From NCBI GenBank assembly GCA_030268105.1, contig BSDZ01000078.1, positions 806,001 through 870,000 of the forward strand: a stretch of 64,000 nt of DNA, written 5' to 3'. How positions within the stretch are numbered: the stretch's first letter is position 1; every line of letters starts with the position of its first letter. The notes beneath the pieces were generated by a model that was not told the DNA's origin, did no database searches, and worked only from the letters and a program-made list of their open reading frames with translations. This document shows, in pieces, positions 619 through 54,980 of this stretch. A program made the translations under genes and the position numbers. This stretch comes from Volvox africanus (lineage: Eukaryota > Chlorophyta > Chlorophyceae > Chlamydomonadales > Volvocaceae).

Positions 619-3600
619 TCATTGGGCTTGCGTGGCACGTTTGCGGGCTTCTTCGAGCAGGGGCTTCATGTCCTGCGAGAAGTTGCGTGCCGGTTCCCAT
701 GAGTTGTGCTCGCTGGTATACCCTGTCCACTTGACCAAGTACTCGTGTACTGTCCGCTTACGTCGGTGTCGGCCCACATGACGAGCGCGATAATCTAACA
801 CCCGCTCCACATCGTAAAACTTCTGTTTACCAGCGACCCAGGTCTCGGGAACTGGTTCGATCGCTGCGGGGGCGTTAGAAGGCTCAGGGACGGGTTCCGT
901 ACCACGATACGGATGAACAAGCGATACGTGAAACGTGGGGTGAATGGTCATGTCAGCGGGCAATGCAAGCTCCACAGCCACATTCCCAACCATGCGCATG
1001 ACAGGATACGGACCAATCCAGCGGGGTAAAAGTTTTCGGGATCCGTCGGCCAAGGAACGCAAGTTCTTGGTGCTTAGCAACACGAGTTGCCCTTCCGAAA
1101 ACGTCACATCCTGCTTAGATTTGTTATAGTATTCCGTCGTTCGTTGCTGAGCCGCGTCCAAACACGACTTCGCGTCTGTGATTCGGGACATAAAAGACTT
1201 GGCAAAAAGTTTAGCAGCAGGCACGTTCACTTCCAACTCACGCCACACGGGTAGCGCGGGATGAAATCCGTAGTTGAAAAAGAACGGACTTTTGCCTGTA
1301 GAGCGGTTAACAGCATTGTTAAGCACGAATTCTGCCGCAGTCAAATACGTATCCCAAACGAGTGGTGTGCGACCAGCATAATTGCGCAACATATCACCCA
1401 ACGTGCGGTTTGTGCGTTCGGTTTGACCATCAGTCTGCGGGTGATACGCCGTGCTCAGGTTGACGCGCATGCCAACTAGTTTGCAGAGCGCTTCCCAAAA
1501 CTTAGACGTGAACTGTCCACCGCGGTCCGAGATCACATTTTTGGGAACTCTGTGTAACCGAACCACATTATCGAAAAACAAACGTGCGGTTTGCTCAGCC
1601 GTGCAGGATGATGTGCATGGTGCTAGGTGAACCATCTTAGTCAGACGATCGACCATTACGAACACCGCATCGTATCCCCCCTCAGTTTTGGGCAGCGCGA
1701 CTACGAAGTCCATGGAAACACTTTCCCAAGGCGCATCCGGGACAGGCAACGGTTGCAACAACCCCTGGCCCTTACTGGACAAAGCCTTATTGCGCTGGCA
1801 CAGACTGCATGTCTGTACGAAGTTCGCCGCATCCTTAGCCAAACGAGGCCACCAAAAGGAACGTTGCACCAAGTCGATCAATCGCTTGCTACCAGGGTGT
1901 CCTGCTAACGGGTCCTCATGGAACCGCGCAAGGATGTCGTAGCGTAGCGCGTCGTCGTTCGGAACGACGATTTGCGTAGCTGCACCCTCCGTCCGTAGCC
2001 AAAGGCCATTCTGCTTGCGAAGGTTTTCTACATTAGCCGGGTCCGCGAACCAGGCGTCTGCGTTGTAGGCAACCTTCAACCGCTCCACGAGGTCTGTCGC
2101 GATCGGTACCTCCTCGCTACGCGGCCGCACGACGGGCGCTGCCAAAATTGCAGTGTGTAGCGACGGATGTCGACTGAGAGCATCGGCAATATTCAATTTA
2201 CCAGAAATATACTCCCAGGTGCAGTCGAACCTAGCTAGGTATTCCATCCACCTAGCCTGACGGCGGTTCAACGTCGGAATGCTTTGCAAAAACGTTAGGG
2301 GCTTATGGTCAGTCTTTAAAGTAAACGGGCGTCCCTCGAGGTAACAGCGCCATTCCATTAAAGCATGGAGCACGGCCAGAAGCTCCTGTTCCCCGGTGGT
2401 GTAGCGAATCTCCGCACCAGAAAACTTCTTACTCGTGAAGGCGATCGGTCGCCCTTCCTGTAACAATACAGCGCCGCTTCCAAATATTGAGGCATCAGAC
2501 ACTACCTCAACACGAAATGGCAACGAGTAATCAGGGAATGCAAGGGTGACATCTTCGGCACGATTCGTTTGAGCTCTTCGAATGCCCGCTGGCATTGCGA
2601 CGTCCACGACTCGAGCGAAACGAAAACGCCTTTGCGAGTTAAGTTAGTAAGCGGGGCCGCAATGATGGAAAATTTTTCAATGAACTTTCGGAAATAATTG
2701 GTCAAGCCAAGGAACTTACGCAGCTCCGTGAGGTTCTGAGGCGCGGGCCAATCGCGAACCACGGCGACCTTCCGCGGGTCCATCTTCACACCGGTCGCCA
2801 ACACAATGTGGCCCAAATATTCCACCTAAGGCTGCGCCCAAAAGCATTTGGCGCGTTTAGCAAACAATTGCTCCCGCCTCATAACGTTGAGCACGAGCCG
2901 AAGATGCTCCAAGTGCTCCTCTCGCGTCTTAGAATAAACCAAGATGTCATCCAGGTAGCAAACAACGAACCTGTCGATAAACGACCTAAACATGCGGTCC
3001 ATAACCGCCTGAAACGTCGCAGGGGCATTAGTCAAACCAAACGATAGGACCGTATACTCAAAGTGACCGAAGGGCGTCCGAAAAGTGGTTTTCGGGATAT
3101 CAGAGGCAGCGATGCGAATCTGATTGTAGCCCTGTTGTAAGTCAATTGAGGAAAAATAAGCCGAGCCCTTCAGCTTATCCAACAGGTCGTCAACACGTGG
3201 CAAAGGGTAGCGATTTTTCACCGTATTCGCATTTAACCCCCGGTAATCAATGCACATGCGCAAGGTCCCATCCTTCTTACCGACAAACAAAATCGGTGCA
3301 GAATACGGGGATGTGCTGGGGCGTATCATACCCTTCGCGAGCAAATCCGTCACCTGGCGCTTTACCTCATCCAGCTCCAATGGACTCAACCTGTACATTG
3401 GCCGGGCCGTAGGCTGCGCTCCAGGCATGAGAGGGATTGTGTGATCAACAGGACGCATAGGTGGTAGGCCAGGGATATCTTTAAAGACGTCCTCATACTG
3501 CGACAGTAGGGCCTCAACCTCAGGATCCGGAGAAATCTGCGTGGTGGTGACACAACAGCCCACCCGTGGCCTCAAAAGCAGTCCGTGGGCACCCTTCCGT

Positions 3601-4679
3601 AACAAACGGACGGCCTCCTTACGCCCGACTAGCTCTGGTTCGATTCGTGCGGCCATTGCGGTCACAGCGAAATTATCCATAGGCACCGCCTCAGCTTCGC
3701 CCTCCTTTGGTGTGACATGTTCGAACGACAGGAAAGGTACCTTAATCGACAGAGTACCCTTGCACATATGCAGGGTTGCGGTCTCCATGTCGATGTGCGC
3801 GCGGTACTGTCGTAATGTCGAAGACCCCATTATGTACGGTGCAGTCTCTGCTAAGCCCTGCAGCACGTACGGCCGGGTCACAACACGCAAAGGGCCTATC
3901 GATAGGCTAAGGGTAATCCTGCCCACGATGGGATGCTTACCCCCGTTAGCAAGGGTAACCTGTGGACAATCAGACGACTCTGGGGACAACCCCAGCGCAT
4001 TCACCTCTGCGACAGAGATGAAGTCGTCGCTGGCACCGGTGTCAACAAGTGCCTTCAGAGTACGGCCATTCAAACCGATCTGAACCACAGGGACACGGTT
4101 ATCTACGAGCGACTGCCCAGCAGACAACGTCAGTGCACTTAGGGCGGGTCCGTAACCTACGGCACCCCCGTCAGGAGCTTCGTACCAAACGTCAACCGAG
4201 TAGGATGTGCTTGGCCACGGAGCCAGCGTACCCTCCCGATCCACACCATTAAACAAAACGGTGCCCGGCTCGAACTGGTGGACATGCCGCATACCCCTTA
4301 ACGATGCCTCTGCCTTGCGCCGACAGAAAGCGGGGAGTAAAACACATGCGGCGGTGCCTGGATATTGACGCCTACACCTCCTGTATATGGCCAACTGTTC
4401 CGACATCTCACGCAGAGACGAGGGGATGAACAAAACCACGTGGTTGGACAGATCGATAGACGACAGGGGACGGCGAGGTGTAAACGAATTACACAACGGG
4501 TCAAAGCAGAGAAGTCCCGTGCGTCCGTCAAGCGTGATGCGTCGCGCAATGACTCGCTCGATGTGTCCAAGTACACAAGGCAACAATGCCTTAACGGCTG
4601 GCCGTAAGGATGACCACCGACCACGCGTTAGTTCAGAAATCCCAGGTGGTGCCCCCTCCGCAGGAACCCGGGCAAGCCC
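619..4679 (-). pseudogene. pol: A0 pol (methylase-like, PR, RT, RNase H, IN, chromodomain), broken
   Basis: This reading frame continues that of gag after one UAG. In order it holds a methylase-like block (about 4620-4150), an aspartic protease with DTGASDDF (about 4040), reverse transcriptase with YLDD (about 2955), RNase H, an integrase with an HHCC zinc site and a DDE core, a GPY motif, and a chromodomain ending at the TGA at 619-621. Two lesions are visible: a CAG to TAG change at 2826-2828 in the RT motif where sister copies read QPQVEYLGH, and a one-base deletion near 2560 between RT and RNase H. The protein would make cDNA and integrate it, and the chromodomain would be expected to target heterochromatin. 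This copy cannot make it whole. Confidence 0.9.
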
Positions 4680-4682
4680 CTA
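4641..4682 (-). promoter_or_regulatory. Gag-pol stop codon with downstream stem (A0)
   Basis: The UAG is at 4682-4680. After a 7-nt spacer, CCCGGG (4672-4667) can pair with CCTGGG (4646-4641) across a 20-nt loop. Pol continues in the same frame. This is a candidate programmed readthrough signal. Confidence 0.6.
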
Positions 4683-5915
4683 TTTCGGCTGAGGTACAAA
4701 CGGCGGCATTAGCGGGCAATCCTTAGTGGAATGGCTCTCCGCACACCGTAGACAAACGTTGGCCAATTTCCGACGCTGGAATTCGGAACGATTGCAATTC
4801 CATTTTGGCATATACGTGTCGTCCGTGCGAGTCCGCTTTGCATTGGGGTCGGAACGCTGTGCGGCTGCCGTCGACGGCGCACCACCACGCTTCCTGCTTT
4901 TAGCCGGGTCCGAGCTCGGACCTGCTCCTCCTGACCCACGGACACCCGAGCTAGCGCCCCCGCGCACCTGGCGTTGCCGGTTGCTGCGTCGCGTCGCGGC
5001 AGTAGGCGTGGGGCGGGTCGCTCCGAAGTCCTGGTCAAGAGCTACGGCTTCCCCAAGCGGATCCTGCACTTGCACGGCATTTGCACGAGGGGCAGACTTG
5101 ACTTCTTCCTCACCGGCAAGGAGTCGTATCTCTGTGCCCTTAGCAAAAGCGACCAAAGCATCATACGACTTGATCTGCGCTCCAACCAAGTCAGTAGCGC
5201 ACCATTTAGCCAAAAGTTTCGTCAGGCCTCGCCTAAACCAAAAGACACGCTCGGATTCAGTGAGGTCAGCAATGGGAGTCACAAGTGCTTCAAAGCGTGA
5301 CTGGTACGCAGGTACATTCTCATCCCGACGCATGTGGTAGCTACCGGCTGCCAAAACCTTACGAGCTTCCACATCGCGTGCTTGAACCTCAGTAGTGAAT
5401 CGTGCGAGCAAAGCGGCGACCAACTCGTCAAAAGTATAGTTGTCCCGGGCGTTGGTCCAATTGCGATACCAGTCCTTCGCTGAGCCCTCGAGGGTGTTAC
5501 CAACGAAGAGACACCTGATACCGTCATTATCGCCACCATGAACAGCCTGGAGATACTTTTTAGCGTCACGCACGTACGCACGAGTTGCATCGGCTATGCT
5601 ATGCCCTGGTGTCTTGTCGGTCAGCGAAATATTGAGCCTAGGAACGGGAATTGACAATCTCATCACCTCAGGGATGTCATCATGCCCTCGAGCTTGAGGT
5701 AATGGTAGAACCCTTGTTCCAGCAGTGTTGTCCATATTCGTGTTCACTGCTGAATGTGGCACAATTAAGTGAGCAGGGGTCTGAAGGAAAAGGGGCTCTT
5801 GAGTGGCTCGCGCGCCAACTGCCTCAAGACCTCTGTCCGGTGCTCTAGCAGCCACAACAAAATCGGGTTGGCTAGCTAGGCTAGTGTGCGGCGTATCGTC
5901 GTGTTCCGCGGACAT
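4680..5915 (-). CDS. gag: A0 Gag, intact
   Basis: The 411-residue structural protein would form the retroelement particle and package its RNA. Residues about 100-260 resemble a Ty3-type capsid (retrotransposon gag) domain with conserved aromatic and leucine positions. A basic, Ser/Gly-rich stretch follows, then a zinc knuckle, CLRCAESHSTKDC, at residues 388-400. The knuckle spacing is CX2CX3HX4C, one residue shorter than the usual retroviral CX2CX4HX4C. The start at 5915 is chosen because the same MSAEHDD-like start occurs in families B and C. The ORF ends in UAG and pol follows in frame. Confidence 0.9.
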   Translation of the reverse strand: MSAEHDDTPHTSLASQPDFVVAARAPDRGLEAVGARATQEPLFLQTPAHLIVPHSAVNTNMDNTAGTRVLPLPQARGHDDIPEVMRLSIPVPRLNISLTDKTPGHSIADATRAYVRDAKKYLQAVHGGDNDGIRCLFVGNTLEGSAKDWYRNWTNARDNYTFDELVAALLARFTTEVQARDVEARKVLAAGSYHMRRDENVPAYQSRFEALVTPIADLTESERVFWFRRGLTKLLAKWCATDLVGAQIKSYDALVAFAKGTEIRLLAGEEEVKSAPRANAVQVQDPLGEAVALDQDFGATRPTPTAATRRSNRQRQVRGGASSGVRGSGGAGPSSDPAKSRKRGGAPSTAAAQRSDPNAKRTRTDDTYMPKWNCNRSEFQRRKLANVCLRCAESHSTKDCPLMPPFVPQPK

Positions 5916-6135
5916 GGAGCACGAAACGATACCCTAGGTTTGCGTAATAGAAGCCGACTTCTATCGCAAAGGCAAGAGTACAAAGCGATTCGGTGAGCCT
6001 ACCGACAGTACTCTTGAGAAGATTCAGTAAACTCAGCAAGTACTTGCCCAGCTGAGTCCTGATCTCTGTAGTTTGGGCAATGAGAGTCGCCAACTGGTCC
6101 GGACGAAAGCCGGTCTCAGTCGCCGCAGCAAGCAA
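5881..6135 (-). CDS. Leader ORF overlapping the gag start
   Basis: An 84-codon reading frame in the 5' leader, in a different frame from gag, ends 35 nt inside gag. Its C-terminal half is leucine-rich (YLLSLLNLLKSTVGRLTE). A1 has a near-identical ORF, and family B keeps similar wording (YLLYLLAILKSTVGRLTK). In A2 and A4 a deletion joins this ORF in frame to gag. It could be a translated upstream ORF or an alternative Gag N-terminus. No function is recognised. Confidence 0.35.
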   Translation of the reverse strand: MLAAATETGFRPDQLATLIAQTTEIRTQLGKYLLSLLNLLKSTVGRLTESLCTLAFAIEVGFYYANLGYRFVLHVRGTRRYAAH

Positions 6136-10200: not shown

Positions 10201-10445
10201 CCCTACATTGGCTGTAAAACGGTAGCAACACACATGCAGCTGTGTCCGGACATTGATGTCTACATCTCCTGTACCTGACCAGCTGTTCGAACAGCTCACT
10301 TTGAGATGAGGGGATGAACAAAACGATACGTTCTCAAGGGCCAAAAGCGACGATGCTTCACAACTGGACGTAGGAACGACCACCGACCATACATTTGTTC
10401 AGCTGTCCCGGATGGAGTCAACTCCGCATCAATCCAGGCACTCCC
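7206..10445 (-). pseudogene. pol: C1 pol remnant
   Basis: Fragments in pol order on the minus strand: methylase-like block and protease (10321-9500), RT with YLDD (9366-8330), partial RNase H (8330-8150), and integrase with HHCC and part of the DDE core (8040-7206). A deletion removes the RNase H to integrase linker near 8150, where the sequence jumps from the LTD/QSV region to the integrase N-terminus. Stops include TAG for a Gln codon near 9001 and TGA for Arg codons near 8285 and 7577. It is non-functional. Confidence 0.85.
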
Positions 10446-10448
10446 CTA
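10407..10448 (-). promoter_or_regulatory. Gag-pol stop codon with downstream stem (C1)
   Basis: The UAG is at 10448-10446. CCTGGA (10438-10433) pairs with TCCGGG (10412-10407), with the same 7-nt spacer and 20-nt loop as in family A. The A-U closing pair replaces the G-C pair of families A and B. Confidence 0.55.
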
Positions 10449-20432: not shown

Positions 20433-21633
20433 CTTAGCTAGCCAACCCGATTTTGTTGTGGCTGCTAGAGCGTCGGATAGAGGTCTTGAGACTGTTGGCA
20501 CGAGAGCCACTCAAGAGCCCCTTGTCCTTCAGACCCCTGCTCACTGAATTGTGCCGCATTCAGCAGTTAATACAAATATGGACAACACTGCTGGACCAAG
20601 GGTTCTGCCATTACCTCAAGCTCGAGGGCATGATGACATCCCTGAGGTGATGAGATTGTCAATTCCCGTTCCTAGGCTCAATATCTCGCTGACTGAAAAG
20701 ACACCAGGACATAGCATAGCCGATGCAACTCGTGCGTACGTGCGTGACGCTAAAAAGTATCTCCAGGCTGTTCATGGTGGCGATAATGATGGTATCAGGT
20801 GTCTCTTCGTTGGTAACACCCTCGAGGGCTCAGCGAAGGACTGGTATCGCGAATGGACCACCGCCCAGGGCGACTATACTTTTGACGAGATGATCGCCGC
20901 TTTGCTCGCACGGTTCGCTACTGAGGTTCAAGCACGTGATGTGGAGGCTCGTAAGGTTTTGGCAGCCGGTAGCTACCACATGCGTCGGGGTGAAAATGTA
21001 CCTGCGTACCAGTCACGCTTCGAAGCACTTGTGACCCCCATTGCTGATCTCACCGAAACCGAGCGTGTCTTTTGGTTTAAGCGAGGCCTGACAAAACTGT
21101 TGGCTAAATGGTGCGCTACTGACTTGGCTGGGGTGCCGATCAAGTCGTATGATGCCTTGGTCACTTCTGCTAAGGGTACGGAGATACGACTCCTTGCCGG
21201 TGAGGAAGAAGTCAAGTCTGTCCCTCGTGCAAATGCCGTGCAAGTGCAGGATCCGCTTGGGGAAGCTGTGGCTCTAGACCAGGAACTCGGAGCGACCCGC
21301 CCCACGCCTACTGCCGCGACGCGACGCAGCAACCGGCAACACCAGGCGCGCGGGGGCGCTAGCTCGGGTGTCCGCGGGTCAGGAGGAGCAGGTCCGAGCT
21401 CGGACCCGGCTAAGAGCAGGAAGCGTGGTGGTGCGCCGTCGTCGGCAGCCGCACAGTGCTCTGACCCCAATGCGAAGCGGACTCGCACGGATGACTCGTT
21501 TATGCCAAAATGGAATTGCAATCGTTCCGAGTTCGAACGTCGGAAAGCGGCCAATGTTTGTCTACGGTGCACGGAGAGTCATCCTACGAAGGATTGCCCG
21601 TTACTGCCGCCGTTTGTACCTCAGCCGAAATAG
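20398..21633 (+). pseudogene. gag: A1 gag with one nonsense codon
   Basis: Aligns end to end with the intact A0 gag. A TGA at 20545-20547 replaces a Leu codon (TTA) about 50 codons in. The capsid domain and the CLRCTESHPTKDC knuckle are intact downstream. An internal ATG at 20572-20574 could still give a protein lacking the first ~58 residues. It ends in the conserved UAG. Confidence 0.88.
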
Positions 21634-21672
21634 GGGCTTGCCCGGGTTCCTGTGGAGGGGGCACCGCCCGGG
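21631..21672 (+). promoter_or_regulatory. Gag-pol stop codon with downstream stem (A1)
   Basis: UAG at 21631-21633, spacer GGGCTTG, CCCGGG (21641-21646), 20-nt loop, CCCGGG (21667-21672). Pol continues in frame after the UAG until an indel near 21920. Confidence 0.6.
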
Positions 21673-24600
21673 ATTTCTGAACTAACGCGTGGTCGGTGGT
21701 CATCCTTACGGCCAGCCATGAAGGCATTGTTGCCTTGCGTACTTGGGGGTATGCGGTGTGTCCACCTGTTCAAGCTGGGCACCGTTTTGTTTCATGGTGT
21801 GGATCGGGAGGGTATGCTGGCTCCGTGGCCAGGGACATCCTACTCGGTTGACGTTTGGTATGAAGCTCCTGATGAGGGTGCCGTAGGTTACGGACCCGCC
21901 CTAAGTGCGGACCCGCCCTAACATTATCTGCTGGGCAGTCGCTCGTAGATAACCGTGTCCCAGTGGTTCAGATCGGTTTGAATGGCCGTACTCTGAAGGC
22001 ACTTGTTGACACCGGTGCCAGCGACGACTTCATCTCTGTCGCAGAGGTGAATGCGCTGGGGTTGACCCCAGAGTCGTCTGATTGTCCACAGGTTACCCTT
22101 GCTGACGGGGGTAAGCATCCCATCGTGGGCAGGATTACCCTTAGCCTATCGATAGGCCCTTTGCGTGTTGTGACCCGGCCGTACGTGCTGCAGGGCTTAG
22201 CAGAGACTGCACCGTACATAATGGGGTCTTCGACATTACGGCAGTACCGCGCGCGCATCGACATGGAGACCGCAACCCTGCATATGTGCAAGGATACTCT
22301 GATGATTAAGGTACCTTTCCTGTCGTTCGAACATGTCACACCAAAGGAGGGCGAAGCTGAGGCGGTGCCTATGGTTAATTTCGCTGTGACCGCAATGGCC
22401 GCGCGAATCGAACCAGAGCTAGTCGGGCGTAAGGAGGCCGTCCGTTTGTTACGGAAGGGTGCCCACGGACTGCTTTTAAGGCCGCGGGTGAGCTGTTGTG
22501 TCACCACCGCGCAGATTTCTGCGGATTTTGAGGTTGAGGCCCTGCGCAGCCTATGGCCCGGCCAATGTACAGGTTGAGTCCATTGGAGCTGGATGACGTG
22601 AAGCGCCAGGTGATGGATTTGCTTGCAAAGGGTATGATACGCCCCAGCACATCCCCGTATTCTGCACCGATTTTGTTTGTCGGTAAGAAGGATGGGACCT
22701 TGCGCATGTGCATCGATTACCGGGGGTTGAATGCGAGTACGGTGAAAAATCGCTACCCTTTGCCACGCGTTGACGACCTGTTGGATAAGCTGAAGGGCTC
22801 GGCTTATTTTTCCTCGATTGACTTACAACAGGGCTATAATCAGATTCGCATCGCTGCCTCTGATATCCCGAAAACTGCTTTTCGGACGCCCTTCGGTCAC
22901 TTTGAGTATACGGTCCTATCGTTTGGTTTGACTAATGCCCCTGCGACGTTTCAGGCGGTTATGGACCGAATGTTTAGGCCGTTTATCGACAGGTTCGTTG
23001 TTTGCTACCTGGATGACATTTTGGTTTATTCTAAGACGCGCGAGGAGCACTTGGAGCATCTTCGGCTCGTGCTCAACGTTATGAGGCGGGAGCAATTGTT
23101 TGCTAAACGCGCTAAGTGCTTTTGGGCGCAGCCTCAGGTGGAATATTTGGGCCACATTGTGTCGGCCACTGGTGTGAAGATGGACCCGCGGAAGGTTGCC
23201 GTGGTTCGTGATTGGCCCGCGCCTCAGAACCTCACGGAGCTGCGTAAGTTCCTTGGCTTGACCAATTATTTCCGAAAGTTCATTGAAAAATATTCCATCA
23301 TTGCGGCCCCGCTTACTAACTTAACTCGCAAAGGTGTTTTTGTTTCGCTCGAGTTGTGGACGTCGCAATGCCAGCGGGCATTCGAAGAGCTTAAGCGAAC
23401 CGTTGCCGAAGATGTCACCCTAGCATTCCCTGATTACTCGTTGCCATTTCGTGTAGAGGTGGTGTCTGATGCCTCAGTGTTTGGAAGCGGCGCTGTATTG
23501 TTACAGGAAGGGCGACCGATCGCCTTCATGAGTAAAAAGTTTTCTGGTGCGGAGATTCGCTATACCACCGGGGAACAGGAGCTGCAAGCTTTAAAGGAAT
23601 TGGAATGGCAGTGCTGCATGCTTTAAAGGAATGGCGCTGTTACCTCGAGGGACGCCCATTTACTTTAAAGACTGACCACAAGCCCCTAACGTTTTTGCAA
23701 AGCGTTCCGACGTTGAACCGCCGTCAGGCTAGGTGGATGGAATACCTAGCTAGGTTCGACTGCACCTGGGAGTACATTTCTGGTAAATTGAATATTGCCG
23801 ATGCTCTCAGTCGACATCCGTCGCTACACCCTGCAATTTTGGCAGCGCCCATCGTGCGACCGCATAACGAGGAGGTGCCGATCGCGACAGACCTCACAGA
23901 GCGGTTGAAGGTTGCCTACAACGCAGACGCCTGGTTCGCGGACCCGGCTAATGTAGAAAACCTTCGTAAGCAGAATGGCCTTTGGCTACGGACGGAGGGT
24001 GCAGCTACGCAAATCGTCGTTCCGAACGACGACGCGCTACACTACGACATCCTTGCGCGGTTCCACGAGGACCCGTTAGCAGGACACCCTGGTAGCAAGC
24101 GGTTGGTCGAGTTGGTGCAACGTTCCTTTTGGTGGCCTCGTTTGGCTAACAATGCGGCGAACTTCGTACAGACATGCAGTCTGTGCCAGTACAATAAGGC
24201 TTTGTCCGGTAAGGGCCATGGGTTGTTGCAACCGTTGCCTGTCCCGGATGCGCCTTGGGAAAGTGTTTCCATGGACTTTGTAGTCGTGCAGCCCAAAACT
24301 GAGGGGGGATATGATGCGGTGTTCGTAATGGTCGATCGTCTGACTAAGATGGTCCACCTAGCACCATGTACATCGTCCTGCACGGCTGAGCAAGCGGCAC
24401 GTTTGTTTTTCGAAAATGTGGTTCGGTTACACGGTGTTCCCAAAAACGTGATCTCAGACTGTGGTGGGCAGTTCACGTCTAAGTTTTGGGAAGCGCTCTG
24501 CAAACTAGTTGGCATGCGAGTCAACCTGAGCACAGCGTACCACCCGCAAACTGATGGTCAAACCGAACGCACAAACCGCACGTTGGGTGATATGTTGCGC

Positions 24601-26361: not shown

Positions 26362-26999
26362 ACAAGTGCCTTCAGCGTATGGCCATTCAGACCGACCTGA
26401 ATCACTAAGACACGATTATCTGCTAGCGACTGCCCTGCAGATAGCACTAGTGCACTCAAGGCGGGTTCAAAACTCGCGGAACCCTCAATGAGCAGGAGCT
26501 TCATACCAAACGTCAACGAAATAGGGAAGTCCCGGCAACGGAACTGGCATTCCCTGCATATCCACACCATTAAACAACATGGTGCCCGGTGCAAAACGGG
26601 AGATACGCTGCATACCCTTTAACAGAGCCTCAGCCTTGCGCTGGCTATAGGCAGGGAGCAAAACACATGCAGTGGTGTCTGGATATTGACGTCTGAATCT
26701 CCTATACAAGGCCAACTGTTCCGACATCTCTTGCAGAGATGAGGGGACGAACAAAACGACGTGGTTGGACAAATCGAGGGAAGACAAGGGACAGCACGGT
26801 GTAAACAAATTACACAGCGCGTCAAAGCAAAGGAGGCCGTGCGTCCATCAAGCGTAATGTGACGCTTAAGAGCACGCTCGATTTGTTCAAGAACAGAAGG
26901 CAACAATGCCTTCACGGCTGGCCGTAAGGATGACTACCGACCATGCATATGTTCTGAAATCCCAGGTGGAGTCCCCTCCGTTTCGGCCCGGGCAATCCC
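26362..26999 (-). pseudogene. pol: B2 pol N-terminal part (methylase-like block to protease)
   Basis: Follows the B2 gag UAG in the same frame (from 26999). It holds the start of the pol block (MKALLPSVL at about 26915), a frameshift near 26825 after LDGRT, then the conserved NHVVLFVPSS...ACVLLPAY...VDVWYEAP block (26770-26490) and the start of the protease, up to the A1 insertion. At least two frameshifts are present. Confidence 0.82.
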
Positions 27000-27002
27000 C
27001 TA
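26961..27002 (-). promoter_or_regulatory. Gag-pol stop codon with downstream stem (B2)
   Basis: UAG at 27002-27000, 7-nt spacer, CCCGGG (26992-26987) pairing with CCTGGG (26966-26961) across a 20-nt loop that itself can pair GGAG with CTCC. Confidence 0.6.
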
Positions 27003-29352: not shown

Positions 29353-29465
29353 GGGCACGACTTGGGAAACGGTGGCCTGGTTGGTACTTAAACAGGCCCG
29401 TAGGATTTGAATAATATAACATAAAAGCGTCCAATAACAACAAGGCGAGCTGCTGAAATTTGAAA

Positions 29466-31571
29466 ATGGTAAGTCAGCGAAAGGTGAGGCGAAAGACCGC
29501 AATCTGTCGCGTTCTGCTATGCCTAACACTCTGCAAGCTGATAACAGCATTCTGTGACAGCCTGGCTCCAGAAGCGGTGGAACCCGTGGTTTCCTGTCAC
29601 CCCCCCCTGTCAATCGACGAACGGGATCGTACGTGCAGGAACGTGCCACATAAGGGACGCGCTTACCGGAGGGGTCACGAAAAGAACGCAGCAAACAATC
29701 GAATTTCAACAGCAGCGATAAGTCCCGAGCGGACGCTGCCAATGATCCAAATCAGGGAAGCCCAGGCTTCATCATCAACTGAGACCAAGCAAAAGGCCGT
29801 AAATGCGTATTCCTACTTCTCAGAGTCAGCTCGTGAAGACCAGGATATGGGTCTGAAGGGAGACCATCGAGCACAGGACCTCAGCCAGAGCAACTCTTGC
29901 CCAGCAGATGACGACTTCTGTGAAAAAGCATTCCACAGACATGATAATTCTCTAAGATACGTTACAAACAGAACCTGTGGAAGGACGCCTGAAACAGACT
30001 ACTCTTCACGAAGAGCAGCTTCTGACTGTATAGACATAACGGAAAAATACACCATTGCAATCACAAATTGCAACACTAGAATGACCTCTGGAAAATGCCA
30101 CAACCGCGAAGGCAAGGACGTGGAAGACCCAAGAAACTTGCGAGCGAACAACCTAGTAACCAACAAAGCCCACGATAAGCCACAAATAGGATTATGGGGA
30201 CATCTAAGAAGATCCATTAAACAACCACCCGACATCAAGGTCACAGCCCAAGGTGTGAACGTTGCTGGACGAATGCTGGACAACCTTGGCCGTACAATGA
30301 ATGCCCCACAACTGCACCACACACGCCAGAACTCGCCACCTTCGACTGCAGGGACGATGCTTGGATCGGCTAGCCCACGGATCGCATCACGCGGCATCCA
30401 GAAAGCCTTTCAACCTTATCTTATGCGGGGAAGAAGCACACCGACTGGTGTGCACCTACCAGGGGATGTAATGCGCGCAGGTGGGCACCTAATACCCCAT
30501 ACCATCGAAGCGCTGCTGCACGATCTCGAAATTATGATCCTCATTGGGTACAGTATCATTGCCGGCCTTGGGGTAACGTATGCACTTTACAAAGTCAACA
30601 GAGCAGCAAGACAGTGGAATCGAAGCAAAGGGAGATCCCTGCAACAGACAGGCAATGCAATCCTACTTGCGGCTATGCTGTCAGCGCCCCTCGCCTGTGC
30701 GGTAGCACTGAGACCACTGGACTTAGCCATCCGTTTAACGTTACTAACAGTTGGACTGATTTGGGTTTTACGACACTTCAGTAAACGAATAGCAGCCAGC
30801 GCCGTACCCGTAGCAATAGACCTGGCTCTCGCCTGCACAATCTATGCTGCTGAAACAATCAAGTGGGCAGGTCAGCACCTATTGGCGACTAGGCAGATAA
30901 TGGTGTCAGCAGCCGCACTTGTCACACTATGTGTACAGCTGGCCACAGCAGCCCCAACGGTCCCCATTCAGTCTATCAGTACCCCCGCAATTGGTAAAGG
31001 CCTGAAGTATATACCAGGGCTAAAGGGACATGCAAGCTGGCTGATACACATCCGTCTGATAGTCGGCTTGGCGATACCGCAGAACACGATGTTTGGTACC
31101 ACAATAACCCTCATCGTTACACTGATAACGACTGCCAGTTGGGATAGAGACCCCGCTCCAGGGACAGAGGGACACCCTGAAGGAACGGAAAGCACCCAAT
31201 GTGCGGACCCACAAGATGAAACCACGCAAGCCGAGCGACCCCATACCCTTCCCAACACACGAGTGTGGCGGCTAACAGGACCTGGGGCCCCATCAAAACA
31301 AGTCACATGGCCGATAATGACAATCCCGCACAACCCAGATGACACCCTTTACCACGAGCAACAGCAGAAAGAGCTCTGCATGATCCACGCCATAAACAAC
31401 CTACTAGGGGGACCGTACATCGACCCACAGCACGTACTGCAATACTGTCGTACAATGCTGCAACACATGGCTGACCGGGAACTCCACAATGCAGCCGCCG
31501 CATGGCGACTAACCCACAACCAAAACACAGGCAACTTCTTAACGCTGGCAATCAATCCATACCTACGCTAG
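29466..31571 (+). CDS. Multi-pass membrane protein with Josephin-like protease N-half
   Basis: A 701-codon ORF from the ATG at 29466. Residues about 8-28 are a hydrophobic, Cys/Leu-rich segment after basic residues, like a signal peptide or anchor. Residues 30-350 are hydrophilic. Several hydrophobic segments follow at about 353-376, 397-416, 420-440, 446-464, 476-498 and 524-558. The C-terminal part holds the Josephin Cys motif ELCMIHAINNLLGG (Cys about 638), as in ataxin-3/JOSD deubiquitinases. The frame stops at TAG 31569-31571 and continues in the next 442 nt with the rest of the domain. I do not recognise the N-terminal 600 residues. Confidence 0.65.
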   Translation: MVSQRKVRRKTAICRVLLCLTLCKLITAFCDSLAPEAVEPVVSCHPPLSIDERDRTCRNVPHKGRAYRRGHEKNAANNRISTAAISPERTLPMIQIREAQASSSTETKQKAVNAYSYFSESAREDQDMGLKGDHRAQDLSQSNSCPADDDFCEKAFHRHDNSLRYVTNRTCGRTPETDYSSRRAASDCIDITEKYTIAITNCNTRMTSGKCHNREGKDVEDPRNLRANNLVTNKAHDKPQIGLWGHLRRSIKQPPDIKVTAQGVNVAGRMLDNLGRTMNAPQLHHTRQNSPPSTAGTMLGSASPRIASRGIQKAFQPYLMRGRSTPTGVHLPGDVMRAGGHLIPHTIEALLHDLEIMILIGYSIIAGLGVTYALYKVNRAARQWNRSKGRSLQQTGNAILLAAMLSAPLACAVALRPLDLAIRLTLLTVGLIWVLRHFSKRIAASAVPVAIDLALACTIYAAETIKWAGQHLLATRQIMVSAAALVTLCVQLATAAPTVPIQSISTPAIGKGLKYIPGLKGHASWLIHIRLIVGLAIPQNTMFGTTITLIVTLITTASWDRDPAPGTEGHPEGTESTQCADPQDETTQAERPHTLPNTRVWRLTGPGAPSKQVTWPIMTIPHNPDDTLYHEQQQKELCMIHAINNLLGGPYIDPQHVLQYCRTMLQHMADRELHNAAAAWRLTHNQNTGNFLTLAINPYLR

Positions 31572-37667: not shown

Positions 37668-38262
37668 CCGGCACCGGAATTGTTTACCTTGCATAATATG
37701 AATGTTGAACGTGACATTGTGAATGCAACTCGTTCCTATCTACGTGATATTTGATATAAGTACCTGCAGTTGGTCCGTGGCGGTGAACATGATGAGGTGA
37801 GGTGTGTCTTTGTTGGGACTACCCTCGAGGGTATAGCAAAGACATGGTATGATCAATGGATCACTGCACGGGAAAACTTCACGTTTGATGAGTTGACTGT
37901 CGCCCTGCTTGCACACTTTACCCCAGAAGACACGTGATATTGAGGCACGCTGTATATTGACCTTCGACTCGTTTTTTCATGTTTCCGAATGAAACTGTAA
38001 CTGCCTACCAATCACGTTTTGAGGCTCTTGTGATGCCATTTGTCCTAAGAGCTGAGATGCGTATTTTAGCTAGACAAAATGCTTTGAGACTTGTGCCTCA
38101 TGTGACTGCCATGCAAACGCAGGATCCATGACTGACAAAATGGGAGTGCATGCAATCCAAGCTTGTGAGTTGGAAGGAGATCACTCTCTGTTGGAGATGT
38201 GCGGTGGGTCATCTCATGAGGGATTGCAATTATTGCCACCTTTGGCCCCACGGTCAAAGTAG
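37668..38262 (+). pseudogene. gag: C6 gag remnant
   Basis: Capsid-domain segment with a small insertion containing a stop near 37750, a frame loss near 37930, and a knuckle CWRCAVGHLMRDC near 38200 (CX2CX3HX4C). It ends in the conserved UAG. Confidence 0.8.
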
Positions 38263-38301
38263 GGGAGTGCCTGGATTGATGCGGAGTTGACTCCATCCGG
38301 G
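38260..38301 (+). promoter_or_regulatory. Gag-pol stop codon with downstream stem (C6)
   Basis: UAG 38260-38262, spacer GGGAGTG, CCTGGA (38270-38275), 20-nt loop, TCCGGG (38296-38301). Confidence 0.55.
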
Positions 38302-44080: not shown

Positions 44081-44939
44081 ATGATGGCTGAACGTGACGA
44101 CCTGTCGTTCGTAGGCTTGACATGTCAACCCGAGCCGGGTACCGTTCCTAGAACGTTTGATAGGGATCCTGAGACTATTGACACAATTACTGCTCAAGAT
44201 CCTCTTGTGTTTCAGGCCCCTATCCATCTTACTACGCCACGCTCGGCAGCCATAACGGTTACAGATGGAACTGCTGATCAACGGGATTTGCTGTCACCTC
44301 AAATGCAAGACCGCGCCGACGGTAATGAGGTGAAGAGGTTTACTATCCCGGCATCGGAATTGTTTACCTTGCATAATATGAATGTTGAACGTGACATTGT
44401 GAATGCAACTCGTTCCTATCTACGTGATATTTGGAAGTACCTGCAGTTGGTCCGTGGCAGTGAACATGATGAGGTGAGGTGTCTCTTTGTTGGGACTACC
44501 CTCGAGGGTATAGCGAAGACATGGTATGATCAATGGATCACTGCACGGGAAAACTTCACGTTTGATGAGTTGACTGTCGCCCTGCTTGCACACTTTACCC
44601 CAGAAGACACGTGATATTGAGGCACGCTGTATATTGACCTTCGACTCGTTTTTTCATGTTTCCAAATGAAACTGTAACTGCCTATCAATCACGTTTTGAG
44701 GCTCTTGTGATACCATTTGTCCTAAGAGCTAAGATGCGTATTTTAGCTAGACAAAATGCTTTGAGACTTGTGCCTCATGTGACTGCCATGCAAACGCAGG
44801 ATCCATGACTGACAAAATGGGAGTGCATGCAAGCCAAGCTTGTGCGTTGGAAGGAGATCACTCTCTGTTGGAGATGTGCGGTGGGTCATCTCATGAGGGA
44901 TTGCAATTATTGCCGCCTTTGGCCCTGCGGTCAAAGTAG
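44081..44939 (+). pseudogene. gag: C8 gag, broken in the capsid region
   Basis: Starts MMAERDDLSF; 177 codons are open and align with A and B Gag up to the capsid middle (ALLAHFTPEDT). Near 44612 an indel ends the frame, and residues equivalent to the capsid C-terminus are degraded. The knuckle CWRCAVGHLMRDC follows near 44873, then UAG at 44937-44939. Confidence 0.85.
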
Positions 44940-44978
44940 GGGAGTGCCTGGATTGATGCGGAGTTGACTCCATCCGGG
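44937..44978 (+). promoter_or_regulatory. Gag-pol stop codon with downstream stem (C8)
   Basis: UAG, 7-nt spacer, CCTGGA (44947-44952), 20-nt loop, TCCGGG (44973-44978). The loop can pair GGAG with CTCC, as in B2. Confidence 0.58.
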
Positions 44979-50916: not shown

Positions 50917-53900
50917 TCATTGGGCTTGTGTGGCACGTTTGCAGGCTTCCTCGAGCAGGGGCTTCATGTCCTGCGAGAAGTTGCGTGCCGGTTCCCATGA
51001 GTTGTGCTCGCTGGTATACCCTGTCCACTTGACCAAGTACTCGTGTACTGTCCACTTACGTCGGTGTCGGCCCACACGACGCGCGCGATAATCTAACACC
51101 CGCTCCACATTGTAAAATTTCTGTTTACCAGCGATCCAGGTCTCGGGAACTGGTTCTATCGCTGCGGGGGCGTTAGCAGGCTCAGGGACGGGTTCCGTAC
51201 CACGATAAGGACGGACAAGCGATACGTGAAACGTGGGGTGAATGGTCATATCAGCGGGCAATGCAAGCTCCACAGCCACATTCCCAACCATGCGCACGAC
51301 AGGATATGGACCAATCCAGCGGGGTAAGAGTTTTCGGGATCCGTTGGCCAAGGAACGCAAGTTCTTGGTGCTTAGCAACACGAGTTGCCCTTCCGAAAAC
51401 GTCACATCCTGCTTGAATTTGTTGTAACACTCCGTCGATCGTTGCTGCACCGCATCCAAACACGCCTTCGTGTCTGTGATTCGGGACATAAAAGACTTGG
51501 CAAAACGTTTAGCAGCAGGCACGTTCACTTCCAACTCACGCCACACGGGTAGCGCGGGATGAAACCCGTAGTTAAGAAAGAACGGACTTTTGCCTGTAGA
51601 GCGGTTAACAGCGTTGTTAAGCGCGAATTCTGCCGCAGTCAAATATGTATCCCAAACGAGTGGTGTGCGACCAGCATAATTGCGCAACATATCACCCAAC
51701 GTGCGGTTTGTGCGTTCGGTTTGACCATCAGTCTGCGGGTGGTACGCTGTGCTGAGGTTGACGCGCATGCCAACTAGCTTGCAGAGCGCTTCCCAAAACT
51801 TAGACGTGAACTGCCCACCGCGGTCCAAGATCACATTTTTGGGAACCCTGTGTAACCAAACCACATTGTCGAAAAACAAGCGTGCGGTTTGTTCAGCCGT
51901 GCAGGACGATTTGCATGGTGCTAGGTGGACCATCTTAGTCAGGTGATCGACCATTACGAACACCGCATCATATCCCCCCTCAGTTTTGGGCAGCAAGACT
52001 ACGAAGTCCATGGAAACACTTTCCCAAGGCGCATCCGGGACAGGCAACGGTTGCAACAACCCATGACCCTTACCGGACAAAGCCTTATTGTACTGGCACA
52101 GACTGCATGTCTGTACGAAGTTCGCCGCATTGTTAGCCAAACGAGGCCACCAAAAGGAACGTTGAACCAACTCGACCAACCGCTTGCTACCAGGGTGTCC
52201 TGCTAACGGGTCCTCGTGGAATCGCGCAAGGATGTCGTAGCGTAGCGCGTCGTCGTTCGGAACGACGATTTGCGTAGCTGCACCCTCCGTCCGTAGCCAA
52301 AGGCCATTCTGCTTGCGAAGGTTTTCTACATTAGCCGGGTCCGCGAACCAGGCGTCTGCGTTGTAGGCAACCTTCAACCGCTCTGTGAGGTCCGTCGCGA
52401 TCGGCACCTCCTCGTTATGCGGTCGCACGATGGGTGCTGCCAAAATTGCAGCGTGTAGCAACGGATGTCGACTGAGAGCATCGGCAATATTCAATTTACC
52501 AGAAATGTACTCCCAGGTGCAGTCGAACCTAGCTAGGTATTCCATCCACCTAGCCTGACAGCGGTTCAACGTCGGAACGCTTTGCAAAAACGTTAGGGGC
52601 TTGTGGTCAGTCTTTAAAGTGAATGGGCGTCCCTCAAGGTAACAGCGCCATTCCTTTAAAGCATGCAGCACTGCCAGAAGCTCCTGTTCCCCGGTGGTGT
52701 AGTGAATCTCCACACCAGAAAACTTCTTACTCATGAAGGCGATCGGTCGCCCTTCCTGTAACAATACAGCGCCGCTCCCGAATACTGAGGCATCAGACAC
52801 TACCTCAACACGAAACGGCAACGAGTAATCAGGGAATGCAAGGGTGACATCTTCGGCAACGGTTCGCTTGAGCTCTTCGAATGCCCGCTGGCATTGCGAC
52901 GTCCACGACTCGAGTGAAACGAAAACGCCTTTGCGAGTTAAGTTAGTAAGCGGGGCCGCAATGATGGAATATTTTTCAATGAACTTTCGGAAATAATTGG
53001 TCAAGCCAAGGAACTTACGCAGCTCCGTGAGGTTCTGAGGCGCGGGCCAATCGCGAACCACGGCGACCTTCCGCGGGTCCATCTTCACACCAGTAGCCGA
53101 CACAATGTGGCCCAAATATTCCACCTGAGGCTGCGCCCAAAAGCATTTGGTGCGTTTAGCAAACAATTGCTCCCGCCTCATAACGTCGAGCACGAGCCGA
53201 AGATGCTCCAAATGCTCCTCGCGTGTCTTAGAATAAACCAAGATGTCATCCAGGTAGCAAACAACGAACCTGTCGATAAACGGCCTAAACATTCGGTCCA
53301 TAACCGCCTGAAACGTCGCAGGGGCATTACTCAAACCAAACGATAGGACCGTATACTCGAAGTGACTGAAGGGCATCCGAAAAGCGGTTTTCGGAATATC
53401 AGAGGCAGCGATGCGGATCTGATTATAGCCCTGTTGCAAGTCAATCGAGGAAAAATAAGCCGATCCCTTCAGCTTATCCAACAGGTCGTCAACGCGTGGC
53501 AAAGGGTAGCGATTTTTCACCGTACTTGCATTCAACCCCCGGTAATCGATGCACATGCGCAAGGTCCCATCCTTCTTACCGACGAACAAAATCGGTGCAG
53601 AATACGGGGATGTGCTGGGGCGTATCATACCCTTCGCGAGCAAATCCGTCACCTGGCGCTTTACCTCGTCCAGCTCCAATGGACTCAACCTGTACATTGG
53701 CCGGGCCGTAGGCTGCGCTCCAGGCATGAGAGGGATTGTGTGATCAACAGGTGGTAGGCCAGGGATATCTTTAAAGACGTCCTCATACTGCGACAGTAGG
53801 GCCTCAACCTCAGGATCCACAGAAATCTGCGCGGTGGTGGCACAACAGCCCACCTGCGGTCTCAAAAGCAGTCCATGGGCACCCTTCCGTAACAAACGGA

Positions 53901-54378
53901 CGGCCTCCTTACGCCCGACTAGCTCTGGTTCGATTCGCGCGGCCATTGCGGTCACAGCGAAATTAACCATAGGCACCGCCTCAGCTTCGCCCTCCTTTGG
54001 TGTGACATGTTCGAACGACAGGAAAGGTACCTTAATCGACAGAGTACCCTTGCACATATGCAGGGTTGCGGTCTCCATGTCGATGTGCGCGCGGTACTGC
54101 CGTAATGTCGAAGACGCCATTATGTACGGTGCAGTCTCTGCTAAGCCCTGCAGCACGTACGGCCGGGTCACAACACGCAAAGGGCCTATCGATAGGCTAA
54201 GGGTAATCCTGCCCACGATGGGATGCTTACCCCCGTCAGCAAGGGTAACCTGTGGACAATCAGACGACTCTGGGGTCAACCCCAGCGCATTCACCTCTGC
54301 GACAGAGATGAAGTCGTCGCTGGCACCGGTGTCAACAAGTGCCTTCAGAGTACGGCCATTCAAACCGATCTGAACCAC
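50917..54378 (-). CDS. pol: A2 Pol: protease, RT, RNase H, integrase, chromodomain
   Basis: 1153 open codons. Protease DTGASDDF at residues 16-23; RT with [19 protein letters not shown] and YLDD near 379; RNase H from [13 protein letters not shown] near 526 with TDHKPLTF; integrase zinc site H..H..CSLC at about 722-765; catalytic Asp in SMDF (about 789), Asp in DRGGQF (about 851) and Glu in TDGQTERTNR (about 888); GPY motif near 1013; chromodomain at about 1084-1130 with EYLVKWTGYTSEHNSWEP. All recognised catalytic residues are present. A three-codon deletion (MRP) lies between protease and RT. The frame differs from that of the upstream block, so normal translation from gag would need a frame change near 54400. 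Confidence 0.93.
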   Translation of the reverse strand: MVQIGLNGRTLKALVDTGASDDFISVAEVNALGLTPESSDCPQVTLADGGKHPIVGRITLSLSIGPLRVVTRPYVLQGLAETAPYIMASSTLRQYRAHIDMETATLHMCKGTLSIKVPFLSFEHVTPKEGEAEAVPMVNFAVTAMAARIEPELVGRKEAVRLLRKGAHGLLLRPQVGCCATTAQISVDPEVEALLSQYEDVFKDIPGLPPVDHTIPLMPGAQPTARPMYRLSPLELDEVKRQVTDLLAKGMIRPSTSPYSAPILFVGKKDGTLRMCIDYRGLNASTVKNRYPLPRVDDLLDKLKGSAYFSSIDLQQGYNQIRIAASDIPKTAFRMPFSHFEYTVLSFGLSNAPATFQAVMDRMFRPFIDRFVVCYLDDILVYSKTREEHLEHLRLVLDVMRREQLFAKRTKCFWAQPQVEYLGHIVSATGVKMDPRKVAVVRDWPAPQNLTELRKFLGLTNYFRKFIEKYSIIAAPLTNLTRKGVFVSLESWTSQCQRAFEELKRTVAEDVTLAFPDYSLPFRVEVVSDASVFGSGAVLLQEGRPIAFMSKKFSGVEIHYTTGEQELLAVLHALKEWRCYLEGRPFTLKTDHKPLTFLQSVPTLNRCQARWMEYLARFDCTWEYISGKLNIADALSRHPLLHAAILAAPIVRPHNEEVPIATDLTERLKVAYNADAWFADPANVENLRKQNGLWLRTEGAATQIVVPNDDALRYDILARFHEDPLAGHPGSKRLVELVQRSFWWPRLANNAANFVQTCSLCQYNKALSGKGHGLLQPLPVPDAPWESVSMDFVVLLPKTEGGYDAVFVMVDHLTKMVHLAPCKSSCTAEQTARLFFDNVVWLHRVPKNVILDRGGQFTSKFWEALCKLVGMRVNLSTAYHPQTDGQTERTNRTLGDMLRNYAGRTPLVWDTYLTAAEFALNNAVNRSTGKSPFFLNYGFHPALPVWRELEVNVPAAKRFAKSFMSRITDTKACLDAVQQRSTECYNKFKQDVTFSEGQLVLLSTKNLRSLANGSRKLLPRWIGPYPVVRMVGNVAVELALPADMTIHPTFHVSLVRPYRGTEPVPEPANAPAAIEPVPETWIAGKQKFYNVERVLDYRARRVGRHRRKWTVHEYLVKWTGYTSEHNSWEPARNFSQDMKPLLEEACKRATQAQ

Positions 54379-54419
54379 TGGGACACGGTTATCTACGAGC
54401 GACTGCCCAGCAGATAATG

Positions 54420-54977
54420 TTAGGGCGGGTCCGCACTTAGGGCGGGTCCGTAACCTACGGCACCCTCATCAGGAGCTTCATACCAAACGTCAACCGAGTA
54501 GGATGTGCCTGGCCACGGAGCCAGCGTACCCTCCCGATCCACACCATTAAACAAAACGGTGCCCGGCTCGAACCGGTGGACACGCCGCATACCCCTTAAC
54601 GATGCCTCTGCCTTGCGCCGACAGAAAGCGGGGAGTAATACACATACGGCGGTGCCTGGATATTGACGCCTACATCTCCTATAAACGGCCAACTGTTCCG
54701 ACATCTCACGCAGAGACGAGGGGATGAACAAAACCACGTGGTTAGACAGATCGATAGACGACAGGGGACGGCGAGGTGTAAACAAATTACACAACGGATC
54801 GAAGCAGAGAAGTCCCGTGCGTCCGTCAAGCGTGATGCGTCGCGCAATGACTCGCTCGATGTGTCCAAGTACGCAAGGCAACAATGCCTTCACGGCTGGC
54901 CGTAAGGATGACCACCAACCACGCGTCAGTTCAGAAATCCCGGGCGGTGTCCCCTCCACAGGAACCCGGGCAAGCCC
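54420..54977 (-). CDS. A2 pol N-terminal methylase-like block
   Basis: 186 codons in the gag frame, starting right after the UAG and ending at a TAA created by a local duplication (GGACCCGCCCTAA repeated; plus-strand 54420-54450). It holds an N-terminal basic region, then [27 protein letters not shown], an alpha-helical [33 protein letters not shown] and VDVWYEAP. The order resembles the Dam-like methylase domain of some retroelements, with the NPPF/W motif replaced by IPSS, so catalysis is unlikely. It is conserved in A, B and C. Confidence 0.6.
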   Translation of the reverse strand, partial: GLARVPVEGTPPGISELTRGWWSSLRPAVKALLPCVLGHIERVIARRITLDGRTGLLCFDPLCNLFTPRRPLSSIDLSNHVVLFIPSSLREMSEQLAVYRRCRRQYPGTAVCVLLPAFCRRKAEASLRGMRRVHRFEPGTVLFNGVDREGTLAPWPGTSYSVDVWYEAPDEGAVGYGPALSADPP

Positions 54978-54980
54978 CTA
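54939..54980 (-). promoter_or_regulatory. Gag-pol stop codon with downstream stem (A2)
   Basis: UAG at 54980-54978, spacer of 7 nt, CCCGGG (54970-54965), 20-nt loop, CCCGGG (54944-54939). Confidence 0.6.

Follow-up and report, generated by a model that had tools for sequence, protein, structure and literature searches.

Stop codon readthrough assisted by an RNA structure 3' of the stop codon is best known from gammaretroviruses. Stop codons between gag and pol also occur in retrotransposons, among them Tca2 of Candida albicans, which belongs to the Ty1/copia superfamily. In Moloney murine leukemia virus (MLV), the UAG codon between gag and pol is followed by an 8-nt spacer and an H-type pseudoknot (PMC4178896). 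Among the Ty3/gypsy elements, the Tf1/sushi chromoviruses Tj1, Tosmo1-3 and Tcry1 carry an in-frame stop between gag and pol (PMC10085805, PMC4600332); an in-frame UGA is shared by the chromoviruses of fission yeast (PMC10085805), and in one of these, Tj1, the gag stop codon is needed for integration (PMC4600332). The junction of Tca2, in which an in-frame stop is combined with an 8-nt spacer and a possible bulged pseudoknot, gave no readthrough in baker's yeast (PMC2194720). In the green lineage, most plant groups use a single open reading frame according to survey data, and algal chromoviruses of the Chlamyvir clade have been reported from Volvox carteri and Chlamydomonas (PMC3350952; PMC6317226). 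In nuclear transcripts of Chlamydomonas, a UAG that is made leaky by the sequence CAA-TTA is read through (PMC7440625).

Here we analyze a gag-UAG-pol junction that is present in several copies in a 64,000-nt stretch of the Volvox africanus genome (hereafter the window; contig C75, 806001-870000) and that, judging from the combined sequence features, probably directs programmed UAG readthrough aided by a 3' hairpin. All genome-wide counts refer to the V. africanus assembly of 140,993,249 bases in 126 contigs; the assembly of strain 1101-NZ-11 is described as comprising 141.0 Mb in 129 contigs (PMC10291315). The likeness to MLV is one of layout, i.e., a UAG, a spacer of 7 to 8 nt and a structure. 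As in Moloney MLV, the UAG lies between gag and pol in one frame and is separated by a short spacer (8 nt in MLV, 7 nt here) from a compact structure with a long loop or bulge; however, the MLV structure is a pseudoknot and that of Volvox a bulged two-part hairpin, and the host, the element group and the chromodomain differ as well. Thus, the UAG, the spacer of about 8 nt and the structure of the MLV-type signal are all found in the Volvox elements but the pseudoknot is not. The in-frame stop between gag and pol is shared also with Tj1, Tosmo1-3 and Tcry1, but the stop in these elements is UGA within a conserved 8-nt context that includes CT after the stop, and the accessible portions of the respective reports mention no downstream structure (PMC10085805, PMC4600332). 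Tca2, with its in-frame stop, 8-nt spacer and possible bulged pseudoknot, is similar in layout and differs in using UGA and in belonging to a different superfamily; the failure of its junction to support readthrough in yeast is a warning with regard to the interpretation proposed here. With the Chlamyvir elements, compared here by description, the V. africanus elements have in common the chromodomain and the membership in the green-algal Ty3/gypsy group (PMC3350952; PMC6317226).

Ty3/gypsy pieces in both orientations fill much of the window, and Pfam searches identified in them Ty3-capsid-like gag, aspartic protease, reverse transcriptase (RT), RNase H, integrase and chromodomain sequences. 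The pol frame of the A2 copy encompasses protease, RVT_1, RNase H, rve, SH3_Tf2-1 and Chromo, in the order that is typical of chromoviruses, and in the A0 copy, the same domains are spread over two frames. The gag protein, likewise, combines the two signatures of chromovirus gag, namely a capsid fold (Pfam Ty3_capsid, E 1.4e-5 on A1 gag, below the curated cut-off) and a CCHC zinc knuckle, CLRCxxxHxxxxC, read directly from the translation. On the strength of these domains, the elements that carry the seven junctions are classified as chromodomain Ty3/gypsy retrotransposons of V. africanus. The gag proteins of the window are up to 97% identical to proteins of the VaNZ11 set, in which gag ends at the position of the UAG, and the junction-bearing element is abundant in V. 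africanus. Several observations concern the arrangement of the copies. Within the segment 35927-47009 of the window, gag and pol fragments alternate in orientation, consistent with nested elements. Between elements, a 703-codon open frame (29460-31571, plus strand) shows a weak C-terminal match to Josephin (E 5.6e-4, below the cut-off). Elsewhere in the genome, copies of family A are equally spaced at C33:21460-49375 (9223 bases), C5:2628158-2648450 (9782 bases) and C16:2714302-2734971 (6647 bases), which suggests tandem arrays with shared LTRs.

An earlier note, made from the letters of the window, had described seven AAR-UAG-GGG sites in copies of three families (A0, A1, A2, B2, C1, C6 and C8), each followed by a 7-nt spacer and two 6-nt arms placed 20 nt apart, and all seven are there with exactly these letters. 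In A0, on the minus strand, a gag frame of 417 open codons with a CCHC knuckle (4683..5933), capsid-like by the Pfam match of its A1 counterpart, ends in ...PPFVPQPK and is followed by the UAG (4680..4682), the spacer (4673-4679) and the hairpin, which occupies positions +8 to +39 after the UAG (4641..4672; letters and consensus fold model). The first part of pol, consisting of the linker, protease and RT as delineated by Pfam, remains open for 617 codons in the frame of the UAG (2829..4679), and its first 90 nt (4590..4679) match the region of low synonymous divergence that was measured between other copies of families A and B. Three more junctions lie on the minus strand: C1 (UAG 10446..10448, hairpin 10407..10438), with gag and pol broken around it; B2 (UAG 27000..27002, hairpin 26961..26992), with the arms CCCGGG/CCTGGG and, upon folding, an inner GGAG/CTCC stem; and A2 (UAG 54978..54980, hairpin 54939..54970), with CCCGGG/CCCGGG arms. 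On the plus strand are A1 (UAG 21631..21633, hairpin 21641..21672), which has the same arms as A2, C6 (UAG 38260..38262, hairpin 38270..38301) and C8 (UAG 44937..44939, hairpin 44947..44978). The arms of C1, C6 and C8 are CCTGGA/TCCGGG, which bears out the G-C to A-U swap at stem pair 6 that had been noticed in family C.

The additional claim that pol continues in the UAG frame in all these copies holds well only for A0: A2, A1 and B2 have early stops and the C copies are dead. The A2 frame closes 185 codons after the UAG and that of A1 after 95 codons, in both cases within a 13-nt block, GGACCCGCCCTAA, that is repeated just before the protease (A1, 21892-21925, plus strand; A2, 54408-54480, minus strand). 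At this place, A0 has 5 nt, so the repeated block amounts to a net frame shift of 8 nt that closes the frame, and this is why the pol of A2, with 1153 codons spanning protease, RT, RNase H, integrase and chromodomain (50917..54378, minus strand; Pfam and open frame), is not in the frame of the UAG. The presence of the same lesion in A1, which also carries a long deletion, and A2 suggests the spread of a defective lineage. The B2 frame closes 21 codons after the UAG, and in two other B copies, the frame is open for 495 and 503 codons. In the three C copies of the window, the sequence is broken on both sides of the UAG and the zinc knuckle is out of the UAG frame. All 18 C copies retrieved genome-wide (L039-L056) are dead, their frames closing 18-49 codons after the UAG, in many cases at codon 34 or 49; they keep the UAG and mostly the stem despite the closed frames and look as if a defective master had been amplified.

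Across the genome, the UAG is nearly invariant. A sample in which neither the UAG nor the stem was prescribed was obtained with a 26-nt anchor that starts 57 nt after the UAG and occurs at 1128 places; in the first 30 of these listed, TAG is present without exception (in 29 copies at the exact offset and in one displaced because the stem has lost 1 nt), and the stem is retained in all but this one. Searches with exact flanks and any codon at the place of the UAG, which fix the first two stem bases and miss diverged copies, yielded 1039 junctions of family A, of which 1037 have TAG, along with 18 of 18 in family C and 5 of 5 in family B. The remaining two A junctions have CAG; in both, the 46th codon past the CAG is a stop, and the gag of one of them contains stops as well. 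Thus, neither of the findings that would have spoken against the earlier note was made: most copies do not lack the UAG or the stem, and the only two copies with a sense codon are broken rather than intact and young. Because young copies resemble one another through shared descent, this conservation draws its weight from the split between the families. An intact copy at C3:64729-70700 combines 417 gag codons, the UAG and 1353 pol codons that extend through the chromodomain to a TGA, the first in-frame AUG being pol codon 92. Among 55 A junctions, the gag frame is open for at least 400 codons in 43, pol is open as far as the retrieved DNA extends in 37, and both hold in 32; these are the first-listed or best-matching places rather than a random draw, and many were chosen as best gag matches, so the intact share is not that of the genome. 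In all, the table of retrieved junctions has 83 rows, with three places entered twice (L061/L084, L059/L085 and L062/L083). In these elements, then, the stop is kept and the frame downstream of it is kept as coding, the combination that characterizes gag-stop-pol readthrough.

The near-fixation of the UAG would be of no special significance if this codon were sense in V. africanus or were decoded by a general amber-suppressor tRNA, and it could be added that both variants at the junction are CAG and that the MLV UAG can be read as glutamine (PMC4178896). A change of the genetic code as a general explanation was rejected, however, on examination of the ends of full-length histone H4 genes, of which 11 of 13 end in TAA, one in TGA and one in TAG, so that in V. 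africanus genes, too, UAG is used for termination. Moreover, pol of the intact copy ends in TGA, and general decoding leaves the constraint on the sequence after the UAG unexplained, so we regard this possibility as scarcely credible.

Further evidence comes from a family, denoted D, that was detected via gag rather than via the junction, with a gag protein from another V. africanus assembly (P0009) as the query. Just past the zinc knuckle, the best match (L062, 62% identical) has AAG-TAG-TGG, a 7-nt spacer and the arms UCCAGG/CCUGGG. Compared with family A, pair 4 of the D stem is A-U instead of G-C, so that, together with the change at pair 6 in family C, two pairs have changed on both sides. 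The pol frame of L062 closes 69 codons after the UAG, and this is the one intact junction that represents family D; the spacing between the UAG and the stem in it is identical to that in A, B and C. Another relative (L082) has the UAG and CCCAG/CUGGG with a 1-nt deletion, and its arms pair only when the register is shifted. In L086, which is old and broken, TAA stands in place of the UAG, and no knuckle or junction was located in L087. Other V. africanus proteins, a V. carteri protein and one further contig likewise have a gag that ends at the corresponding position; these ends are known from the protein sequences, some of which are marked as partial.

The outer stem of the hairpin is conserved beyond chance. 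Within 110 nt downstream of the UAG, no longer helix is conserved in all four families (three representative sets), and the consensus fold of one sequence per family extends the simple 6-bp stem with a 20-nt loop of the earlier note, in which the arms and their spacing were correct but the structure was incomplete. In this fold, +8 to +14 pair with +33 to +39 in an outer stem of 7 bp, and a bulge of 6 nt leads to an inner hairpin of 4 bp with a tetraloop (+21 to +32). RNAalifold energies are 2.5 to 4.9 standard deviations below those of column shuffles (five tests, 200 shuffles each): z is -3.7 to -4.9 for the three sets of four single-family representatives and, depending on the length, -3.3 or -2.5 for 13 sequences, chosen by us from 48 distinct junctions for the fold and covariation statistics, which yielded the outer stem and one lone inner pair. 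All six outer pairs are present in 42 of the 48 distinct junction sequences, two of the six exceptions being 1-nt deletions; the pattern behind these sequences and the set of 55 A junctions fixes stem base 9 and limits base 8 to T or C, and that for the other B copies fixes most of the 5' arm. In the anchor-picked copies, where no stem base is fixed, the six pairs are found in 29 of 30, and the remaining copy has a 1-nt deletion. The inner four pairs are intact in 26 of the 48 sequences (5 of 23 in A, 15 of 18 in C and 6 of 7 in B and D).

In the junction alignment, the stem is kept with two double-changed pairs, and the covariation statistics alone are modest: the observed score is attained in 16 of 500 shuffles and the count of double-changed pairs in 321 of 500, and three random transitions leave all six pairs intact in 50 of 220 placements. 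As read from the codons, the changes between the C and A stems alter amino acids, which argues that pairing, rather than the protein sequence, keeps the arms matched. Helices of at least 6 bp conserved in A, B and D number three in the 110-nt junction versus two, overlapping, in 1260 columns of the gag alignment (gaps included), an excess that is favored by the better sequence conservation of the junction; the further helices conserved in these families are +61/+99 and +87/+104. A pseudoknot of the MLV type was rejected because the scan for conserved helices found none of at least 4 bp that is common to the four families, compatible with the outer stem and links the loop to +40..+110. Searches of Rfam with the window segment 21400-22000 produced no match at E of 1 or less, and among viral contigs, there was one pattern match and no relative.

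Synonymous divergence provides a different view of the same region. Between families A and B (three pairs; L061 supplies the B gag, and three different copies supply the B pol), pS is 0.54-0.69 over gag codons -30 to -1 and drops to 0.17-0.19 over pol codons 1-30, which is indicative of an RNA element of about 90 nt overlapping the start of pol. By position, the values are 0.19-0.28 for pol codons 1-14, 0.08-0.19 for 15-29, 0.35-0.45 for 30-44 and 0.56-0.64 for 45-59; Fisher tests give p of at most 0.0004 when the last 60 codons of gag are the reference and 0.005-0.011 when codons 30-129 are (two of three pairs, rounded counts), and among sliding windows, the first 30 codons rank 10th of 891, 13th of 883 and 8th of 694 from the bottom. 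Recombination between the families is disfavored as the cause of this dip: amino acid divergence is not lowered in codons 1-14 (pN 0.22-0.26, a level also seen in much of gag), which a recent exchange alone does not explain. A second synonymous low, at pol codons 304-310, is lower still than the junction in two of three comparisons and reflects either another RNA element or an exchange between families.

At the protein level, A-B dN/dS is 0.23-0.30 (four pairs) over codons 1-86 after the UAG, all of which precede any AUG, and it is 0.83-1.26 over codons 1-30 alone; the latter value is high because dS is so low, so that protein-level selection is demonstrated only over the longer stretch. In the comparisons with D and C, which include broken sequence, the value for codons 1-86 is 0.57-0.88. 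As a whole, these 86 codons evolve as protein between A and B. This bears on an alternative in which the UAG is simply the end of Gag and translation of Pol begins afresh, through re-initiation or internal entry, at the first AUG in the frame (codon 92 of pol in the intact copy). A database gene model (P0013) does begin at this methionine, and given that the protease is located further downstream, the product would still contain the enzymes. Such a start, however, does not account for the selection on codons 1-86 (although the first 30 alone do not show it) or for the UAG frame that is unbroken to the end of the retrieved DNA in 37 of the 55 A copies, and it would require neither a shared frame nor an RNA element at the UAG; we consider it rather improbable. 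The coding and RNA constraint on this stretch is equally at odds with removal of the UAG as part of an intron spliced from a share of the transcripts. In one V. africanus gene model (P0005), the middle of gag is joined directly to the protease region and the junction is bypassed, but this join also eliminates the zinc knuckle as well as the protease DTG and so looks like a gene predictor dodging the stop, which makes splicing a very remote prospect.

Folding of the isolated RNA yielded family-specific results. In family A, the stretch +1 to +60 alone prefers other pairings, with an outer-stem probability of 0.07-0.21, and without the spacer, the probability is 0.98-0.99 for +8 to +39, 0.84-0.93 in three copies and 0.29 in L014, which represents the most frequent of the sampled junction sequences (13 of 81 rows), for +8 to +60, and 0.94-0.99 in four copies for +8 to +100. 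In B, C and D (L082 apart), it is at least 0.89 over +1 to +60; over +8 to +60, it falls to 0.32 in L040, and over +8 to +100, it is low in L061 (0.30), L055 (0.11) and L040 (0.10). When the UAG occupies the decoding site, the ribosome would enclose the spacer, and the folds without the spacer may therefore be the relevant ones. The junction could be a composite RNA element of 90-100 nt that consists of the bulged hairpin (+8 to +39), downstream helices and, in family A, a rival fold using the spacer; it may act as a switch, sampled only while the spacer is covered by a ribosome, and may be ancestral in volvocine chromoviruses and independent of gammaretroviruses, a possibility that we put forward tentatively and with some doubt. 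The folding of the A RNA, in isolation not favoring the stem, and the extension of the constrained stretch beyond the hairpin, to approximately +90, are also what one might expect if the UAG is read through owing to its local context, AAA-UAG-GGG, and the hairpin does another job, for instance in packaging, dimerization or reverse transcription. Against such a division of labor, the position and spacing of the hairpin match those of known readthrough signals, such as MLV with its 8-nt spacer (PMC4178896), and families A, B and C share one distance from the UAG to the stem with the intact junction of D, so we consider it unlikely.

Taken together, a kept stop, an in-frame continuation devoid of AUG for 91 codons and an RNA element at a fixed distance are what programmed readthrough predicts, and re-initiation, splicing and code change are disfavored because each leaves at least one of these three features unexplained. 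The structure-assisted readthrough proposed in the earlier note is accordingly backed by the near-fixed UAG, the stem of family D and the synonymous constraint, from which we infer that ribosomes read the UAG at some rate and that the hairpin stimulates this process, its stimulatory role being the least certain step. Under this scheme, the elements would produce much Gag and little Gag-Pol by means of a UAG located just past the Gag zinc knuckle: most ribosomes would halt at the UAG, and a minority would insert an amino acid and continue in frame into pol. The RNA element that starts at +8, with its 7-bp stem, 6-nt bulge and inner hairpin and with conservation up to about +90, most likely would lower termination or slow the ribosome.

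The strategy of readthrough at a stop between gag and pol is known, from MLV and, with UGA, from the fission-yeast chromoviruses. Among the matches listed in a search of literature titles and abstracts, outside of which most subscription papers fall, there was no green-algal chromovirus with a UAG and a conserved hairpin, which is weak evidence that this combination is new. If the proposed mechanism is correct, these elements would provide an abundant natural signal of this type in the green plant lineage and, with it, a case of repeated invention of an answer to the problem of the Gag:Gag-Pol ratio. The gene models of V. africanus in which gag terminates at this codon, of which there are several, would thereby be accounted for, and readthrough could be studied on a native signal in volvocine algae, for which a leaky-stop tool inspired by readthrough in viruses has been described (PMC7440625).
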